From contig NZ_CP076545.1 of assembly GCF_018889955.1 (NCBI RefSeq), positions 434,001 to 498,000 of the forward strand: DNA of 64,000 nucleotides, given 5' to 3'. The DNA comes from Collinsella sp. zg1085. GTDB taxonomy: Bacteria; Actinomycetota; Coriobacteriia; Coriobacteriales; Coriobacteriaceae. The notes below the pieces were generated by a model. That model searched no databases. It saw only the letters and a list, made by a program, of their open reading frames with translations, and was not told the origin of the DNA. Positions 32,375 to 63,225 of the stretch are shown here, piece after piece. The translations under genes were made by a program, and so were the position numbers. Numbering within the stretch: position 1 is the first letter of the stretch; every line of letters begins with the position of its first letter.

Positions 32375-33082
32375 ATGACCAAGAAGAATAGGGCAAAAGC
32401 AAAGGCCAAGCGCTTTGGTGAGGGCTCAGTGCGCGATGCTGTGACAAGCTCAACCTATGGCGCGGGTAACGCCTTTGCTGCTCTTGGAACACATGAGCCT
32501 GTTATGCCTGACCGCGGTGTCTCGGCATCAGGCTTACCTGAGCTATTGGTGGTTGATGGCTACAACATTATTCATGCAACACCTAAATATGAGCAGCTTA
32601 TGTTTGATGAGGGGGACCACCCGTTTTCAACAGACCGCTATGATGCGGCGCGAACAGCGCTTATCGCTGATGTTGCAGCTTTTGCTCAAGGGAGCTATGA
32701 GGCAGTTATCGTCTTTGATGGTGCAGGTAATGTGAACGCCGAACGACCTAATCTGTCTCAGGCGGGTATTCGGATTGAGTATTCACCCACAGGTGTATCA
32801 GCCGATACGGTGATACAGCAGCTGTGCCGTGAGGCACGGGAATGTGGTCGCGCATGTTCGGTAGTAACAAGCGATGGCGTTATTCAGGCAACCGTGATGG
32901 GAAAAGGGGTAACGCGCATTTCGGCTCGTATGCTCGTTGAGGAGATTGGGCATATCGAGCACGAAATTGAGCGCGTGCAGGCTGAGGCACCTAACATGAA
33001 ATTAACGCTGGGCAGCCGTTTGTCTCCAAAGATTCGCACCCAACTTGAGGCTTTAGGACACCGTAAACAGTCGCTTAGCTAG
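32375..33082 (+). CDS. NYN domain protein, YacP/Rae1-like ribosome-associated endonuclease
   Basis: A 235-residue protein with a NYN (PIN-like) nuclease domain of the YacP family. Blocks include LLVVDGYNIIHATPKYEQL, VIVFDGAGN, IEYSPTGVSADTVIQQ and SVVTSDGVIQ, which hold the conserved acidic residues. B. subtilis YacP (Rae1) cleaves mRNA in the ribosomal A site. A basic leader of about 20 residues (KKNRAKAKAKR) may aid RNA or ribosome contact. It is the last gene of the disA operon. Its neighbours rlmB and cysS support orthology, although action on the same mRNAs is unproven. Confidence 0.85.
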   Translation: MTKKNRAKAKAKRFGEGSVRDAVTSSTYGAGNAFAALGTHEPVMPDRGVSASGLPELLVVDGYNIIHATPKYEQLMFDEGDHPFSTDRYDAARTALIADVAAFAQGSYEAVIVFDGAGNVNAERPNLSQAGIRIEYSPTGVSADTVIQQLCREARECGRACSVVTSDGVIQATVMGKGVTRISARMLVEEIGHIEHEIERVQAEAPNMKLTLGSRLSPKIRTQLEALGHRKQSLS

Positions 33083-33270
33083 GGTGTATGCAGCTGGGTC
33101 TTAGCTTTACTGGAGCCAGCGACAGGAATCGACACGCGGTATAAATACCGCGTGAGTCGCTGCGCCAGCCTTTGGCTGGCTTGCGCGCTTCGCTGGAAAA
33201 TAGCTTACGCATTTTCTCAGCTTCGCGCCCTCTCGCGGGTTCAATTCCTGTCTAAAGGGTGCTTTCTAGC

Positions 33271-33302
33271 AAAAAACCCAGTTCAGCATAGGTGAACTGG
33301 GT
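33271..33302 (-). terminator. Terminator inside repeat copy 1 (minus strand)
   Basis: Stem ACCCAGTTCA/TGAACTGGGT; read on the minus strand it is followed by TTTTTT. Same sequence as the tRNA-Thr terminator at 33474-33505. Confidence 0.7.
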
Positions 33303-33473
33303 CTTAGATTTACTGGAGCCAGCGACAGGAATCGACACGCGGTATAAATACCGCGTGAGTCGCTGCGCCAGCCTTTGGCTGGCTTGCGCGCTTCGCTGGA
33401 AAATAGCTTACGCATTTTCTCAGCTTCGCGCCCTCTCGCGGGTTCAATTCCTGTCTAAAGGGTGCTTTCTAGC

Positions 33474-33505
33474 AAAAAACCCAGTTCAGCATAGGTGAAC
33501 TGGGT
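33474..33505 (-). terminator. Terminator of tRNA-Thr (minus strand)
   Basis: Perfect 10-bp stem ACCCAGTTCA/TGAACTGGGT with a TTTTTT tract on the minus strand, 11 bp past the tRNA 3' end. It is part of the 203-bp repeat unit. Confidence 0.85.
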
Positions 33506-33516
33506 CTTAGATTTAC

Positions 33517-33591
33517 TGGAGCCAGCGACAGGAATCGAACCCGCAACCCACTGATTACAAATCAGTTGCTCTACCGTTGAGCCACGCTGGC
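33517..33591 (-). tRNA. tRNA-Thr (TGT)
   Basis: On the minus strand: acceptor GCCAGCG/CGCTGGC, D-arm GCTC..GAGC, anticodon stem ACTGA/TCAGT with loop TTTGTAA (anticodon TGT), T-arm GCGGG-TTCGATT-CCTGT and an encoded CCA. Its 3' end is the source of the ends of the adjacent 203-bp repeats. Confidence 0.93.
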
Positions 33592-35994: not shown

Positions 35995-38900
35995 GTGAAA
36001 CGTAGCCTTTTTGCCCTTATGTTTGTCCTCTGCATAAGTTTGTTGGGCATACAACCAGCTCACGCTGCATCAACCGTAACATCAGAGGCAGAATTGCGCC
36101 AAGCTCTTGCCTCAGGTGAAACTGAGATTACTACTACAGGTACCATCACCATCACCCAGTCTCTAATGATTACGCAGGGTACCGTTACCATGAATGTTGA
36201 GCGTTTGAACCTTGCTGAGGGTGTAAACTCCATGTTCGTTATCTCCTCGGGGGCTCACCTTAAGCTGGTTGGGGGAACGCTTGATGGACAGCAGCATGGT
36301 CGTTTGATAGAGACCCTCGATGGGTCTAGTCTTTCAATTGATAGTTCCACGCTCACCAACGGGTCAACAGATAGTTTTGAAAAGAAGTTGGTTAACGGTA
36401 CAAATGAGCAGCGCTATCAAGGCGGAGCCATTTGGGCAAATCATGCTACTATCAATTTGGTTAATACAAACTTTACCAACAATCACACCAAGCACGCTGC
36501 TCCTGTTCAGGAGCCTGATAAACAGCCTGCTATCAATACACATGGCGGTGCAATTTATGCTGGTGCGTCAAGCGTTACTATAACCGGTGGCTCATTTATA
36601 GATAACTATTCTGGCGGTAATGAGGGTGGCGTCTACTACGGTGAGGGCGGTGCCATCAAGCTTGAGGTTTCAACACTTAAAATGAACGAGACAGGAGCAA
36701 CCCGTACACGGTTTGATGGCAATCACAATTATATGGCGGCGGCAAATAGAGGCGGCTTGCAAGGCGGCGCTCTTGAGATTACCGAGTCAAATGGTGTTAT
36801 TCGCAATGCAGACTTTGTTGTAAAAGGCGGCTTTGATACTGGTGGCGCTATTAAATTTCAAGAGTCAGGTCAGTCTGGCAATCATTTTAAGGTTCAGGAT
36901 TCTACATTTAAGCTGATTGGAAAGGTACTGCCAACAGCGCCCGTCACAAGTGGATATTTTGGAACATCGGGTGGCGCCATTATGTCTGAGAGCTCATATC
37001 TTACGGTTGAGCGTTCTCATTTTTCGATGCAAAATACACCATCGGTAAGCTTTGCTGGTGGACACATAGACGTGGTGGGTACCGGTGAGTTTAAGCTCCT
37101 CGAATCAACGTTATTGGGAAATGGCGTTGGCTGGAATGAAGCATGGAGAAGCTCTGCCAAATATGGTGGTGCGCTTGCCTTTGAGAATGGCTGCAGTGTA
37201 GTTGCCGAAATTAGAAACACCAACTTTACTGGCTTTACAACCGACCACGTTGGAGGCGTAATTGCGGTTGGACATCGTGTTGGTGGTGAACCTAATGATG
37301 CGTTTGGGCATACAACGGTTAAGCTCAATATGTACAAAACCAACCTCAATGATGCTCGCGCCTATACATGGGATGCAAAAGCTGCAGGTGCTGGCATGTA
37401 TATATCTGAGGGCTCTGAGCTTGTTATGTCGGGTGGCTCTATAGCAAATATGCAAGCTAATTATGCAGGAGCCATTTTTAATAAGGGAAAAGTAACCCTG
37501 ATTGATGGGGCAACTATTCAAAATAATAGTGCCACTCAGATGGTGGGCGGTATCTTTAATGACGGGTATCTCAATGTACATTCCGCAGTTCTGAAGAATA
37601 ATACCAAGACAACAGATACACTTTTTGCCGGTGGCAACCACGAGCTCTCTAGCGGCGAGCACTCTGGTGGCACCATTTACGCAAAGCGTGATGTTATTAT
37701 TGGCTCTGATGCTCGCTTTGATACGAATGCACGTGCAGATGTGCGTGTTATTAATGGGCAGTCGGCTGTTTTACTATCTGGTGCGCGCACGTCACAGCTC
37801 AATATTTCAATTAGTGAGACAGAAAATAATCCTGGTGGCTCGCAGTTTTCAAAGCTGTTTGGAGAGCCTGCGCATCGTCATCTTGGATATGTGGTTGCTC
37901 GTGGTGTTGTTGCAGGCGACTTAACAGCAAGTTATATGCCTGATGGCGTAGCGGCTTATGAGCTCACACCGAATGATGCAAAGTCGCTTCACTATGTTTC
38001 AAAGACGGTTGCTCAAGATAAGATTGCTGCCTTTAGCGACCATATAAAACCGGCGCTATGGGACTATGTATATAACCCCGAGACTAAGACGGCAGTGCTT
38101 GGACAGCGTGCTGTGATGACCTATCACACCAATCATGCTGATGCCACGATTGAAGCGGGCGTTGCAGACACAACCGGTCAAAAGCGCGAGCAGACCTATA
38201 CGTTCTACGCGCCTCATAAAGTTTCACTCAATGATAAGCCGGCTACTGACCTTACCGTGCTTGAGGCAAAGCCTGAACTGAGCATCAATAATGTGCGATA
38301 TACCTTCCGAAACTGGTATACCGATGCTGCTTTAGGCAAGCCGCTTTATGATGTAGCAACGCATACACCAGCCGATAGCGATGTCTATCCCTTTGAGACG
38401 GCAACATTTAGAGCGAGCTGGTCTATTCCTGATGAAGTGACTGACATCATCAATCCAGCGTCTCATAACACGCTTCATACCTATGCGGTGTATGATGCAC
38501 TCATGACGGTTGAAGTTGGAAAGACGTGGCAAGACACTTTGGATGCCGATAAGCAAGATGTCACGTTTGTACTCAAAGGTGGTGCTGCAGAGCAAGAAAA
38601 AACTTTGTCTGCAAACTCAACTGAGCGGGTGCGCTTTGAGAATTTGCCACGTTTCAAGTCTGATGGCTCTGCATATAACTATCGCATAGAAGAAAAAGGT
38701 GCTGCGAACGGAGTGATAACGCTCGGCGGAAAGATGTATAGCAGCGAAGTCTCCGAGCCTGAAGTAAACGGTAATGTTACGAGTTTTACCGTTACTAACC
38801 AACGTATCATTAACTTAAAAGTTACTAAGCACTGGCAAGCTCCTAATTCCGATAAAACTCCTGTTCAGGTGCAGCTCATGCAAAACGGTGTTGCTTATGG

Positions 38901-40662
38901 AAATCCGGTTACGGTAAATGAAGATAGCCAATGGACCTATGACTTTACGTCTCTTCCTCATGCAGGTATGAGTGATAGCGGTCGAGTGGCTTATACCTAC
39001 ACCGTTAAAGAAGTGGGAGAGACTGACGGCTCTCTAACCTTAGGCGACAAGAAGTTTAAGGTAAGTTATGGTGGCAGTGCAGCAGATGGTTTTACCATTA
39101 CCAATACCCGTGAGCTTTCCTCAACACCTATCACTCCGGCAACTACTTCTTTAACTGTTGTTAAGCGCTGGGAGAGAACCACTGCTACTGCTCCCATCAA
39201 GGTGCAACTCATGCGCGATGGTGTAGCACAAGGTGACCCTGTTGAGCTCTCAGCTACTAACAACTGGACACATCGCTTTGACCAGCTACCCGTTCAAGCA
39301 GCTGCAAACTCCACTAAGGCCTACACCTACACCGTTGCCGAGGTAGGAGAGCAAGGCGGTAAGATTACGCTAGGAAATCATAGCTTTGCTGTGGCGTATA
39401 CAACTACTGCAAATAATCGCAGTGTGCTTATCACGAATACTATGGATAACCCCACCAAGAGCATTACTGTTAATAAAACATGGGTAGATGGTGCAAATGC
39501 CCAAAATACACGCCCGCAAGAAGTCGAAGTGCAACTACTAGCCAACGGTCAGGTCACCGAGAAAGTGGCTCATATAAGTGCGGCTACAAATTGGCAATAT
39601 AGTTTTGAAGGCTTGCCAACCTATGCAGAGGACGGTTCTACCATTGCCTATACCGTGCAGGAGCGCCCGGTCGCAGGTTACGCAAGCGAGATTCAAGGAA
39701 ACGCGGAGAATGGCTTTACCTTTGTTAATACCTTGCATACTGCTATCAAGGTAACTAAGACATGGAGGGCATCAGAGGCTGACAAAAGCCCAGTATCTAT
39801 TCAGCTTCAGCGAGCAGATGGAACTAATATAGGTTCTTCTGTGACGCTTAATGATACAAATCAGTGGAGCTATACATTCAAGGATTTGCCAGCAGCAGAG
39901 CTTAAAGAAGATGCTGATACAGCTATTACCTACACCGTTAAAGAAGTGGGAGAGACTGACGGCTCTCTAACTTTAGGCGACAAGAAGTTTAAGGTAAGTT
40001 ATGGTGGCAGTGCAGCAGATGGTTTTACCATTACCAATACCCGTGAGCTTTCCTCAACACCTATCACTCCGGCAACTACTTCTTTAACTGTTGTTAAGCG
40101 CTGGGAGAGAACCACTGCTACTGCTCCCATCAAGGTGCAACTCATGCGCGATGGTGTAGCACAAGGTGACCCTGTTGAGCTCTCAGCTACTAACAACTGG
40201 ACACATCGCTTTGACCAGCTACCCGTTCAAGCAGCTGCAAACTCCACTAAGGCCTACACCTACACCGTTGCCGAGGTAGGAGAGCAGGGCGGTAAGATTA
40301 CGCTGGAAGGTACTGAGTTCACGGTAGGATATGAACTGAGTGATGATAATCACACGGTGACAATTACCAACACGGCTCCAGAGCAAACTCCGCCTCCGAC
40401 ACCTGAGCCCGAGCCTGAGCCGATGCCTCATCCAAACCCAGAACCTCAACCGGCTCCTAACCCCAACCCTGAGCCTAGCCCGAGCCCTGCGCCTACACCC
40501 AAGCCGCAAGACTCTAAACCGCCTGTGCTTAAGAAGAAAACGCGCAAAACTCAGAAAGCATTGCCTTCAACCGGTGATATGGCGCTCGCCATCACAGCAC
40601 TGCTTTCAGTTGGTGGTCTGGGTTTGTCTACCATCGCAATTCATCGCCGTAATAAGCGATAG
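35995..40662 (+). CDS. LPXTG-anchored surface protein: Pmp-like beta-helix, Flg_new-type repeat and CnaB domains
   Basis: A 1555-residue cell-wall protein. Order: signal peptide (residues 1-24, ending QPAHAA); a right-handed beta-helix region (about 30-640) rich in GGAI/GGAL and F-x-x-N repeats like chlamydial Pmp proteins; a Listeria/Bacteroides Flg_new-like module (about 703-800, TFRNWYTDAALGKPLYD); six CnaB-type domains (about 830-1480) that each start like ITVNKTWVDG and end in ITNT or FVNT; a Pro-rich wall spanner; LPSTG (1523-1527); a membrane helix and the tail HRRNKR for sortase. CnaB domains often form isopeptide bonds that stiffen stalks. The GTG start has AGGGAG upstream. An adhesin role is inferred; the ligand is unknown. 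It interrupts the conserved tuf-rpmG interval. Confidence 0.9.
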   Translation: MKRSLFALMFVLCISLLGIQPAHAASTVTSEAELRQALASGETEITTTGTITITQSLMITQGTVTMNVERLNLAEGVNSMFVISSGAHLKLVGGTLDGQQHGRLIETLDGSSLSIDSSTLTNGSTDSFEKKLVNGTNEQRYQGGAIWANHATINLVNTNFTNNHTKHAAPVQEPDKQPAINTHGGAIYAGASSVTITGGSFIDNYSGGNEGGVYYGEGGAIKLEVSTLKMNETGATRTRFDGNHNYMAAANRGGLQGGALEITESNGVIRNADFVVKGGFDTGGAIKFQESGQSGNHFKVQDSTFKLIGKVLPTAPVTSGYFGTSGGAIMSESSYLTVERSHFSMQNTPSVSFAGGHIDVVGTGEFKLLESTLLGNGVGWNEAWRSSAKYGGALAFENGCSVVAEIRNTNFTGFTTDHVGGVIAVGHRVGGEPNDAFGHTTVKLNMYKTNLNDARAYTWDAKAAGAGMYISEGSELVMSGGSIANMQANYAGAIFNKGKVTLIDGATIQNNSATQMVGGIFNDGYLNVHSAVLKNNTKTTDTLFAGGNHELSSGEHSGGTIYAKRDVIIGSDARFDTNARADVRVINGQSAVLLSGARTSQLNISISETENNPGGSQFSKLFGEPAHRHLGYVVARGVVAGDLTASYMPDGVAAYELTPNDAKSLHYVSKTVAQDKIAAFSDHIKPALWDYVYNPETKTAVLGQRAVMTYHTNHADATIEAGVADTTGQKREQTYTFYAPHKVSLNDKPATDLTVLEAKPELSINNVRYTFRNWYTDAALGKPLYDVATHTPADSDVYPFETATFRASWSIPDEVTDIINPASHNTLHTYAVYDALMTVEVGKTWQDTLDADKQDVTFVLKGGAAEQEKTLSANSTERVRFENLPRFKSDGSAYNYRIEEKGAANGVITLGGKMYSSEVSEPEVNGNVTSFTVTNQRIINLKVTKHWQAPNSDKTPVQVQLMQNGVAYGNPVTVNEDSQWTYDFTSLPHAGMSDSGRVAYTYTVKEVGETDGSLTLGDKKFKVSYGGSAADGFTITNTRELSSTPITPATTSLTVVKRWERTTATAPIKVQLMRDGVAQGDPVELSATNNWTHRFDQLPVQAAANSTKAYTYTVAEVGEQGGKITLGNHSFAVAYTTTANNRSVLITNTMDNPTKSITVNKTWVDGANAQNTRPQEVEVQLLANGQVTEKVAHISAATNWQYSFEGLPTYAEDGSTIAYTVQERPVAGYASEIQGNAENGFTFVNTLHTAIKVTKTWRASEADKSPVSIQLQRADGTNIGSSVTLNDTNQWSYTFKDLPAAELKEDADTAITYTVKEVGETDGSLTLGDKKFKVSYGGSAADGFTITNTRELSSTPITPATTSLTVVKRWERTTATAPIKVQLMRDGVAQGDPVELSATNNWTHRFDQLPVQAAANSTKAYTYTVAEVGEQGGKITLEGTEFTVGYELSDDNHTVTITNTAPEQTPPPTPEPEPEPMPHPNPEPQPAPNPNPEPSPSPAPTPKPQDSKPPVLKKKTRKTQKALPSTGDMALAITALLSVGGLGLSTIAIHRRNKR
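38994..39371 (+). repeat. Intragenic repeat, copy 1 (378 bp)
   Basis: Nearly identical to 39927-40304, with two base differences seen by eye and an offset of 933 bp. It covers the end of CnaB domain 2 and most of domain 3 of the surface protein. Confidence 0.95.
39927..40304 (+). repeat. Intragenic repeat, copy 2 (378 bp)
   Basis: Second copy of the 378-bp module, covering the end of CnaB domain 5 and most of domain 6. Near-identity shows a recent duplication or ongoing conversion. Recombination between copies would remove or add 933 bp (311 codons) in frame. Confidence 0.95.
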
Positions 40663-45807: not shown

Positions 45808-46157
45808 TGACAAAGCGAGGACTTGCATGCGGCGATTGAGTGCGTCTGAACCGTTTTAACAGAAGTAGGGAATTGTACGCGTTGAGTTGTTGTAACAGAA
45901 ATGGACAATTGGACGCGGTTTGGTCGTTGTGACAAAACGGGCAATTCAACGCGGCTGGGGCGTTTTGACTAAAGCGGACAATTCGACGTGAATGGTTTTG
46001 ACTAAAACGGGCAATCTGGCAGTAAAAACTGACAAAAATGGCCAATCTGGTAATAAACCCCCTATAGCCAGAAAATCAGCAACCTATCTACCTGCGGGTT
46101 TATAAAATAACTATCAACCCACGGGGGTTCTACACTGCCAAATTGCCCATTTCTGTC
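45808..46157. repeat. Hairpin/iteron element, locus 1
   Basis: Seven degenerate direct repeats with core GACAAAACGGGCAAT start near 45808, 45858, 45894, 45931, 45967, 46000 and 46031; the spacing shrinks from 36-37 to 31 bp. The last copy (46031-46050) pairs in 17 of 20 positions with an inverted copy at 46138-46157. Inside, AACCCCC (46056-46062) faces GGGGGTT (46123-46129) around a TTTATAAAATAA stretch. The spacing is not a multiple of three, so coding is unlikely. It is homologous to 62857-63225 in mirror orientation. Confidence 0.85.
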
Positions 46158-62856: not shown

Positions 62857-63225
62857 GACAGAAATGGGCAATCTGACACTAAAGAACCCCCGAGGGTTGG
62901 TAGTTATTTTATAAAACTGCAGGTAGATGAGTTGCATATAAAAACCCAATAGGGGGTTAATTACCAAATTGCCCGTTTTTGTCAGAATTTAGTGCCAGAT
63001 TGCCCATTTCTGTCAAAAGTACTGGCAGCAGTACCACCACATTGCCTGTTCTGCCAAAATCGATACATCAATCTATCACCGCATTGCCCGTTTCAACCAA
63101 CAGCATTAACAGCTGCCTTACCGGATTGCTCGTTTCAACCAACAGCATTAACAGCTGCCTCATCGGATTATCCGTTTCCACCAAAACAGGTAGCGGCCGT
63201 ATCACCCACATTGCCCGCCTCCACC
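62857..63225. repeat. Hairpin/iteron element, locus 2
   Basis: Mirror-oriented homologue of locus 1. Left arm GACAGAAATGGGCAATCTGA (62857-62876) pairs with CCAAATTGCCCGTTTTTGTC (62964-62983). Inside, AACCCCC (62885-62891) faces GGGGGTT (62952-62958) around TTTTATAAAAC. To the right lie six more inverted-orientation copies of the core ATTGCCCGTTTC at 62995, 63037, 63079, 63121, 63163 and 63206, with a period of 42-43 bp after a first step of 31. Two neighbouring units share AACAGCATTAACAGCTGCC. Open frames through it are shadows of the repeat. Confidence 0.85.

Follow-up and report, generated by a model that had tools for sequence, protein, structure and literature searches.

The array behind the tRNA-Thr(TGT) gene of Collinsella sp. 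zg1085 probably represents a mobile, non-coding DNA cassette of approximately 180–200 bp, present twice; it would target the T-arm, copy its arms from the target and restore the tRNA on insertion. Such cassettes apparently insert at tRNA 3′ ends without breaking the gene. Comparison of the elements establishes, at the level of sequence, four parts: (i) a direct copy of the T-arm 3′ strand, the acceptor strand, CCA and the terminator, (ii) an inverted T-arm, (iii) a conserved core with the stems P2–P4 and (iv) a variable hairpin, P5; the cassette ends at the T-loop, where a further copy of the tRNA 3′ end starts. The same comparison places one core downstream of no fewer than 21 tRNA kinds and of tmRNA, each of them with the universal T-arm.

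The window is the whole stretch of DNA that was analysed, 64,000 nucleotides of contig NZ_CP076545.1. Tandem Repeats Finder gave the array a score of 883. Read on the minus strand, the order is tRNA-Thr, trailer, terminator, inverted T-arm, core, hairpin and a copied tRNA 3′ end with CCA, and the repeat starts with the T-arm/acceptor 3′ strand and CCA of tRNA-Thr. The features are as follows.

33517..33591, minus strand: tRNA-Thr(TGT), the host gene (ARAGORN; Rfam RF00005, 69.1 bits)
33094..33538, minus strand: whole array, two 203-bp units plus the 3′ end of tRNA-Thr itself
33500-33538, minus strand: 39-nt continuation past unit 1, toward the tRNA
33474..33504, minus strand: tRNA-Thr terminator, stem 33480-33488/33496-33504, T-run 33474-33479 (inverted repeat I6)
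33297-33499, minus strand: unit 1, tRNA-proximal (period 203)
33438..33455, minus strand: inverted T-arm of unit 1, complementary to the tRNA-Thr T-arm at 17/18 positions (inverted repeat I4)
33361..33442, minus strand: conserved core P2–P4 of unit 1 (fold, covariation, R1 match of 82.1 bits), with P2 at 33431-33442, P3 at 33389-33430 (GAA/GAA internal loop) and P4 at 33361-33388
33336..33357, minus strand: P5 hairpin of unit 1, which differs among elements (inverted repeats, fold)
33314..33335, minus strand: right end of unit 1, copied T-arm 3′ strand, acceptor 3′ strand and CCA of tRNA-Thr (I9); pairs with 33444-33455 as stem P1
33271..33301, minus strand: second copy of the terminator (inverted repeat I5)
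33094-33296, minus strand: unit 2, distal (period 203)
33235..33252, minus strand: inverted T-arm of unit 2 (inverted repeat I3)
33158..33239, minus strand: conserved core P2–P4 of unit 2 (unit 1 coordinates minus 203)
33133..33154, minus strand: P5 hairpin of unit 2
33094..33132, minus strand: distal copy of the tRNA 3′ end (33111-33132) with the start of the trailer (direct repeat D2)

The first-pass annotation had described two exact 203-bp units and a partial third. The tandem units are real, but they are alike at 202 of 203 positions, differing at 33105 (C) versus 33308 (A), and the supposed third unit is the genuine tRNA's own 3′ end (33517-33538) with its trailer. At its distal end the array lacks the terminator and is followed by unrelated sequence. 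The outer stem proposed from GACAGGAAT and ATTCCTGTC exists (inverted repeats I7–I10): the inverted T-arm pairs with the copied T-arm 3′ strand and encloses four hairpins (P2–P5), which lie side by side instead of forming three nested ones. Both the tie to the tRNA 3′ end and the structured nature of the unit were borne out. No tRNA origin is recognisable for the core that lies between the arms, and a scan of the stretch with Rfam found tRNA alone, apart from one 17.6-bit match far under the gathering score. A plus-strand open reading frame convergent to the array ends at 33082. Elsewhere in the window, positions 35995-40662 encode a large cell-surface-like protein with a long duplicated internal stretch and an LPSTG-like end, and tandem repeats with units of 31–42 bp occur at 45852-46057 and 63076-63184.

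The unit is also present behind other tRNAs. Collinsella sp. zg1085 (1.72 Mb, one contig) carries a second array of three 187-bp units behind tRNA-Val(TAC), whose core is 86% alike, so that two of its 45 tRNA genes are occupied. An assembly error is therefore unlikely, since the units of this second array in the same single-contig genome have their own point differences and comparable arrays occur in other genomes; for the same reason the array is no one-off.

BLAST searches with the core gave matches in 36 of 65 Coriobacteriaceae genomes, and a covariance model built from 26 elements found it in 51 of the 65, in five of six genera, with 2–20 matches each. Across the order, 60 of 395 genomes matched at an E-value of 0.001, a broader model matched 57 of 395, and in either case 51 of the matching genomes were Coriobacteriaceae; the E-values of these models are rough. 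With an even draw across the phylum, the 12 matching genomes of 396 all belonged to this family. The genome set holds one genome per species and shows within-species events only indirectly. Among named genomes, all 76 stretches with the core pattern came from Collinsella, Enorma or uncultured Coriobacteriaceae. Of the few matches beyond the family, some are real: genome G124 has two cores, behind tRNA-Arg and tRNA-Glu. Phage and plasmid collections contained no match to the unit, and viral contigs none, the core patterns included. In the open-access literature, including passages of PMC8040213, no description of such units was found, which is weak evidence of novelty as it extends to open papers only.

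The position of the core relative to tRNA genes was determined in two sets. The first covered 108 unique elements: 84 were located 52–71 nt and 13 were located 230–430 nt downstream of a tRNA on the same strand, and for 11 no tRNA was called. For a second, more diverse set of 120 cores, tRNAs were counted if within 500 nt. ARAGORN placed 109 of these cores 46–430 nt 3′ of a same-strand tRNA, 88 of them less than 80 nt away, and 21 tRNA kinds were represented. Three further cores lie behind an Rfam-confirmed tmRNA, bringing the total behind tRNA or tmRNA to 112 of 120. Two of the others follow a tRNA-Ser-like 3′ end with an unrecognised 5′ part, five are at contig ends, and one (L264), near a contig end, has no visible tRNA 3′ end upstream. 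The first anticodon position is T, C or A in nearly all targets, and G only in Ser-GCT (four) and Phe-GAA (one) among the 109; operon position could cause this bias. At L022 and L171 (tRNA-Gly of G025) and L030 (tRNA-Lys), units stand behind tRNA 3′ halves that begin near the anticodon loop. In G025 a distance of 2 kb separates the two 3′ halves, a layout that would fit integration of another element at the anticodon loop with displacement of the array.

The ends of the elements follow the local tRNA. In 77 of 85 elements, against 26.3 expected, the inverted arm carries the same pair of variable T-loop bases as the tRNA beside it, and the 17-nt T-arm match averaged 14.11 compared with 12.12 for shuffled pairs, the highest of 1000 shuffles reaching 12.49. 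The acceptor part of the inverted arm showed no excess match in the 88 elements tested (2.47 of 8 positions against 2.38 by chance), suggesting that copying from the target is restricted to the T-arm. Later compensatory change instead of copying could also produce the arm match. On the right-hand side, a copy of the last 18 nt of the tRNA was found in 70 of 88 first units. The identity between the two copies of trailer and terminator was 0.81 (median 0.88), compared with 0.49 between other tRNAs, and exceeded the 95th percentile in 55 of the 70. Together with the 18-nt copy, these similar trailers indicate that a direct repeat, made up of the 3′ end and terminator of the target, stands on either side of the unit. 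Single units measure 177–250 bp from CCA end to CCA end, which leaves no coding room.

A fixed distal boundary of the duplication was rejected. Among the 41 arrays with a usable alignment (arrays scoring below 30 were dropped), the duplication ended before the inverted arm in 17, within it in nine and in a truncated or second core in 15. At L044 (tRNA-Thr of G003) the inverted arm continues past CCA and the trailer and reaches into the terminator; the result is an almost perfect palindrome with arms of about 45 bp, followed by a truncated core. A U-turn at the terminator as a general mechanism, considered on the basis of L044, was dropped in view of the chance-level acceptor match in the 88 elements tested; it is a possible special case for long inverted copies of the L044 type.

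According to the cassette reading, the unit would enter tRNA and tmRNA genes at the T-loop. The 3′ end and terminator of the target would be duplicated in this step, leaving the gene intact and terminated. The inverted arm would take its sequence from the new target, or be kept in agreement with it, and could then pair with the T-strand to re-close the folded unit. If units were simply exchanged between different tRNAs, the acceptor strands would change places, and hence the target sequence must be copied. The likeliest route would be via folded single-stranded DNA or a replication or repair intermediate, where the universal T-arm GGTTCGANTCC, present in both orientations, might let synthesis switch from target to core and back to target. 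We tentatively propose that host enzymes or a putative trans-acting protein do this work. Tandem copies would then be gained and lost via recombination between the direct repeats. Whether the whole amounts to mobile DNA with neither a gene nor a dedicated enzyme, which spreads into any tRNA or tmRNA gene by way of the universal T-arm, has its arm re-copied and duplicates the tRNA 3′ end and terminator while the host gene survives, seems to us rather doubtful.

In a scenario of site-specific recombination of the integron or phage type, the unit would be an attC-like or CTX-attP-like site and the T-arm its partner in double-stranded form; circular units would be inserted and excised by a tyrosine recombinase, perhaps the housekeeping Xer pair or the integrase of a passing phage. 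The junction in the T-loop, the near-palindromic T-arm, the outer stem formed by inverted arms and the tandem arrays all fit this idea, as do the tyrosine recombinase genes (PF00589) present in 65 of 65 Coriobacteriaceae genomes and the reordering of terminator-variant units between strains of C. aerofaciens. We nevertheless think it unlikely, because the acceptor strand of the donor would break the target, yet 21 tRNA species keep their own 3′ ends. Furthermore, the copy-rich genomes G004 (20 copies) and G040 (19) hold two such recombinase genes each, just as the element-free G056 does, and phage and plasmid collections and viral contigs are devoid of the unit. Of the two origins suggested earlier, repeated insertion at the 3′ end of the tRNA is the more convincing, but a simple integrase attachment site is not supported: no unit encodes an integrase, and the tRNA-Thr and tRNA-Val arrays of Collinsella sp. 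zg1085 contain no integrase reading frame. Other helper enzymes fared no better. No Y1 transposase was found in the carriers G000, G002, G004, G019 and G021 (5, 16, 20, 3 and 11 matches), and a reverse transcriptase (RVT_1) was present in only 20 of 65 genomes and in none of G000, G002, G004, G018 and G021. As none of the three enzymes tracks copy number, all were rejected as helpers.

The fold was examined by energy calculation and covariation. As RNA, a 142-nt core segment folds at −74.0 kcal/mol compared with −44.1 (sd 3.8) for 200 shuffles (z −7.9); as DNA, the same segment gave z-scores of −7.2 and −6.7 for the two strands. Over 114 distinct core sequences, 96.8% of the cells pair, and 17 of 21 pairs have changed on both sides. 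The covariation score of 0.284 was equalled in none of 500 shuffles (0.094); the alignment was fitted to the model and is biased toward it, and slid controls still stayed at or below 0.060. The d(GCGNAGC) sequence, known for extra-stable mini-hairpins, was set aside as the recognised form, since two-sided base changes favour a long P3 stem and the motif is missing from one core variant (L181). A second core class, with the GRA/GNA internal loop of P3 altered, occurs at L181 (G044), L213 (G018) and L225 (G048); one example has CTCATGCTG/CAGCATGAG, fully paired, in place of the internal loop, and at L181 both classes are adjacent within one array.

The type of base pair was used to distinguish DNA from RNA hairpins in the 115 of 151 unique hits that could be parsed. 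The P4 hairpins contained 548 Watson–Crick, two G-T, one A-C and one other pair, and the P5 hairpins 868, 12, 24 and 61, respectively. For the distinct P4 and P5 hairpins, 14 G-T and 24 A-C pairs were counted. Terminators, which must function as RNA, had 1020 Watson–Crick, 110 G-T, 13 A-C and 12 other pairs at these loci (Fisher p = 3e-10 for G-T versus A-C, P4/P5 against terminators). The missing G-T excess in P4 and P5, unlike in terminators, favours DNA hairpins. P3 does contain G-U pairs (e.g. 17 of 112 cells at columns 45-77), and this RNA-like behaviour points against the DNA reading for that stem.

A functional structured RNA, transcribed with or after the tRNA and acting in trailer processing, as a tRNA decoy or as a regulator, would account for the strand always shared with the tRNA, for the strong RNA fold with its covariation and for the G-U pairs in P3. 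We regard it as improbable, since a terminator separates tRNA and core, P4 and P5 lack the G-U preference of the terminators at the same loci, presence at a given tRNA is patchy among close relatives and 43 of the 45 tRNA genes of Collinsella sp. zg1085 have no unit.

Both copy number and presence differ among relatives; G048, for instance, has eight genus mates that are free of the element. For the comparison of cores, a single element was retained for each genome and tRNA; G124 was excluded, as were short rows and rows lacking a tRNA. In 76 of the 89 elements left, the nearest relative resides at another tRNA species. Within a genome, cores at different tRNA kinds are more alike (0.677) than cores across genomes and kinds (0.646; 0 of 500 permutations as high). 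Elements at the same tRNA in different genomes reach 0.670 against the same 0.646, more than expected, and part of the pattern is thus vertical. Among 101 of the 120 elements, 42 core pairs at least 90% alike sit at different tRNA species, 27 of them in different genomes, and their flanks show a mean identity of 0.63. Selection on core conservation could explain part of this mobility pattern. At tRNA-Gly(TCC), G034 carries a unit where G038 has only tRNA and terminator with the downstream sequence shared (L176 versus L179). Many 'empty' tRNA-Gly sites retain remnants of the inverted arm and look, by their sequence, like losses and not like sites that were never filled. In the tRNA-Val arrays of C. 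aerofaciens, units have different terminators and their order varies between strains. Slippage of a palindromic tRNA-derived element, the other origin proposed initially, is compatible with the change in copy number but not with one core across 21 tRNA species and tmRNA. Downstream of the Val, Glu and Gln arrays of C. aerofaciens (L088, L096, L060, L142 and others), a further palindromic element was observed, roughly 250 bp long and with termini resembling CAAAAAATGGCAAATATGAGTACTG / CAGTACTCATATTTGACGTTTTTTG.

These data also bear on a vertically kept, cis-acting DNA element that serves as a roadblock, a backup terminator or a decoy shielding the tRNA from integrases. Same-tRNA elements do show slightly higher similarity across genomes, the att-like 3′ end of the tRNA recurs in the units, and two tRNA 3′ halves severed by other insertions adjoin units (L022, L030), but with the nearest relatives at other tRNAs in 76 of 89 cases and patchy presence we consider this explanation very improbable. 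Prophages and integrative elements leave direct repeats of tRNA 3′ ends such as those observed, but remnant attachment sites of lost elements, multiplied by slippage, can hardly be what these arrays are, as one covarying core across tRNA species and genera is not expected of leftovers, single units span only 177–250 bp and viral or phage matches are missing.

We compared the cassette with known systems, among them REP/RAYT elements (PMC2817692) and CRISPR arrays and casposons (PMC4046053). Integron cassettes combine attC sites, cargo genes and an IntI-type tyrosine integrase. The cassette shares with them a folded unit whose inverted ends are imperfect, tandem arrays at a single site and a changing unit order; unlike them, it has no cargo gene, no demonstrated integron integrase, a tRNA as anchor and target-dependent arms. 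Genomic islands and phages integrate at tRNA 3′ ends. Here, too, the target is the 3′ part of the tRNA, a copied 3′ end restores the gene, a direct repeat of this end flanks the unit (70 of 88 first units) and tandem arrays form, for which islands such as SGI1 (PMC2297512) are a comparison. Unlike islands, with their integrase and cargo between attL and attR, the cassette has 180–200 bp (single units 177–250 bp) without a gene, and one core serves 21 tRNA species and tmRNA. Folded attP sites of the CTX-phi type are used by XerCD at dif, where a forked single-strand hairpin mimics the double-stranded target in a similar manner; in our case the target is the T-arm, not dif, and no phage was found. 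REP sequences are short, dispersed palindromic repeats that go with a RAYT-type Y1 transposase. Palindromic, non-coding and present in several copies per genome as DNA hairpins, they resemble the cassette. The present elements differ in being bound to tRNA or tmRNA 3′ ends (112 of 120) instead of lying between genes independently of one gene class, in the five-stem unit with its target-matched arm and in the lack of a Y1 transposase in the five carriers. CRISPR arrays grow by duplicating a repeat at each step. A repeat duplicated per step and arrays that may start and end with a repeat are features that the cassette would share with them; the 'spacer' of the cassette, in contrast, is a conserved core. 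RU and other MITE-like enterobacterial sequences are small, non-autonomous and mobile as well, and the abstracts of PMC2229807 and PMC2759123 show no link to tRNA ends; the ends of the cassette, in contrast, follow the local tRNA. DDE-type MITEs have fixed inverted repeats and a short target duplication, whereas the present arm follows the local tRNA and the direct repeat spans tRNA 3′ end, trailer and terminator. A derivative of a retron or group II intron is at odds with the carriers that lack a reverse transcriptase, and among Rfam families tRNA alone reached the threshold.

By analogy, the unit would work most like an integron cassette array or a tRNA-integrating element pared down to the attachment site alone. 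As it carries neither cargo nor integrase, as Y1 transposase and reverse transcriptase are missing in carriers and as its ends follow the target, we place it in none of these families and, with caution, regard it as a new kind. If this holds, a mobile element without genes targets the T-arm of tRNA and tmRNA, and the cassette provides a compact, testable case of non-coding DNA that moves and fits its ends to the target. It would also account for the recurrence of tRNA 3′ ends in a genus common in the human gut, offer strain markers and raise the question of which enzyme, host or foreign, acts on the cassette.
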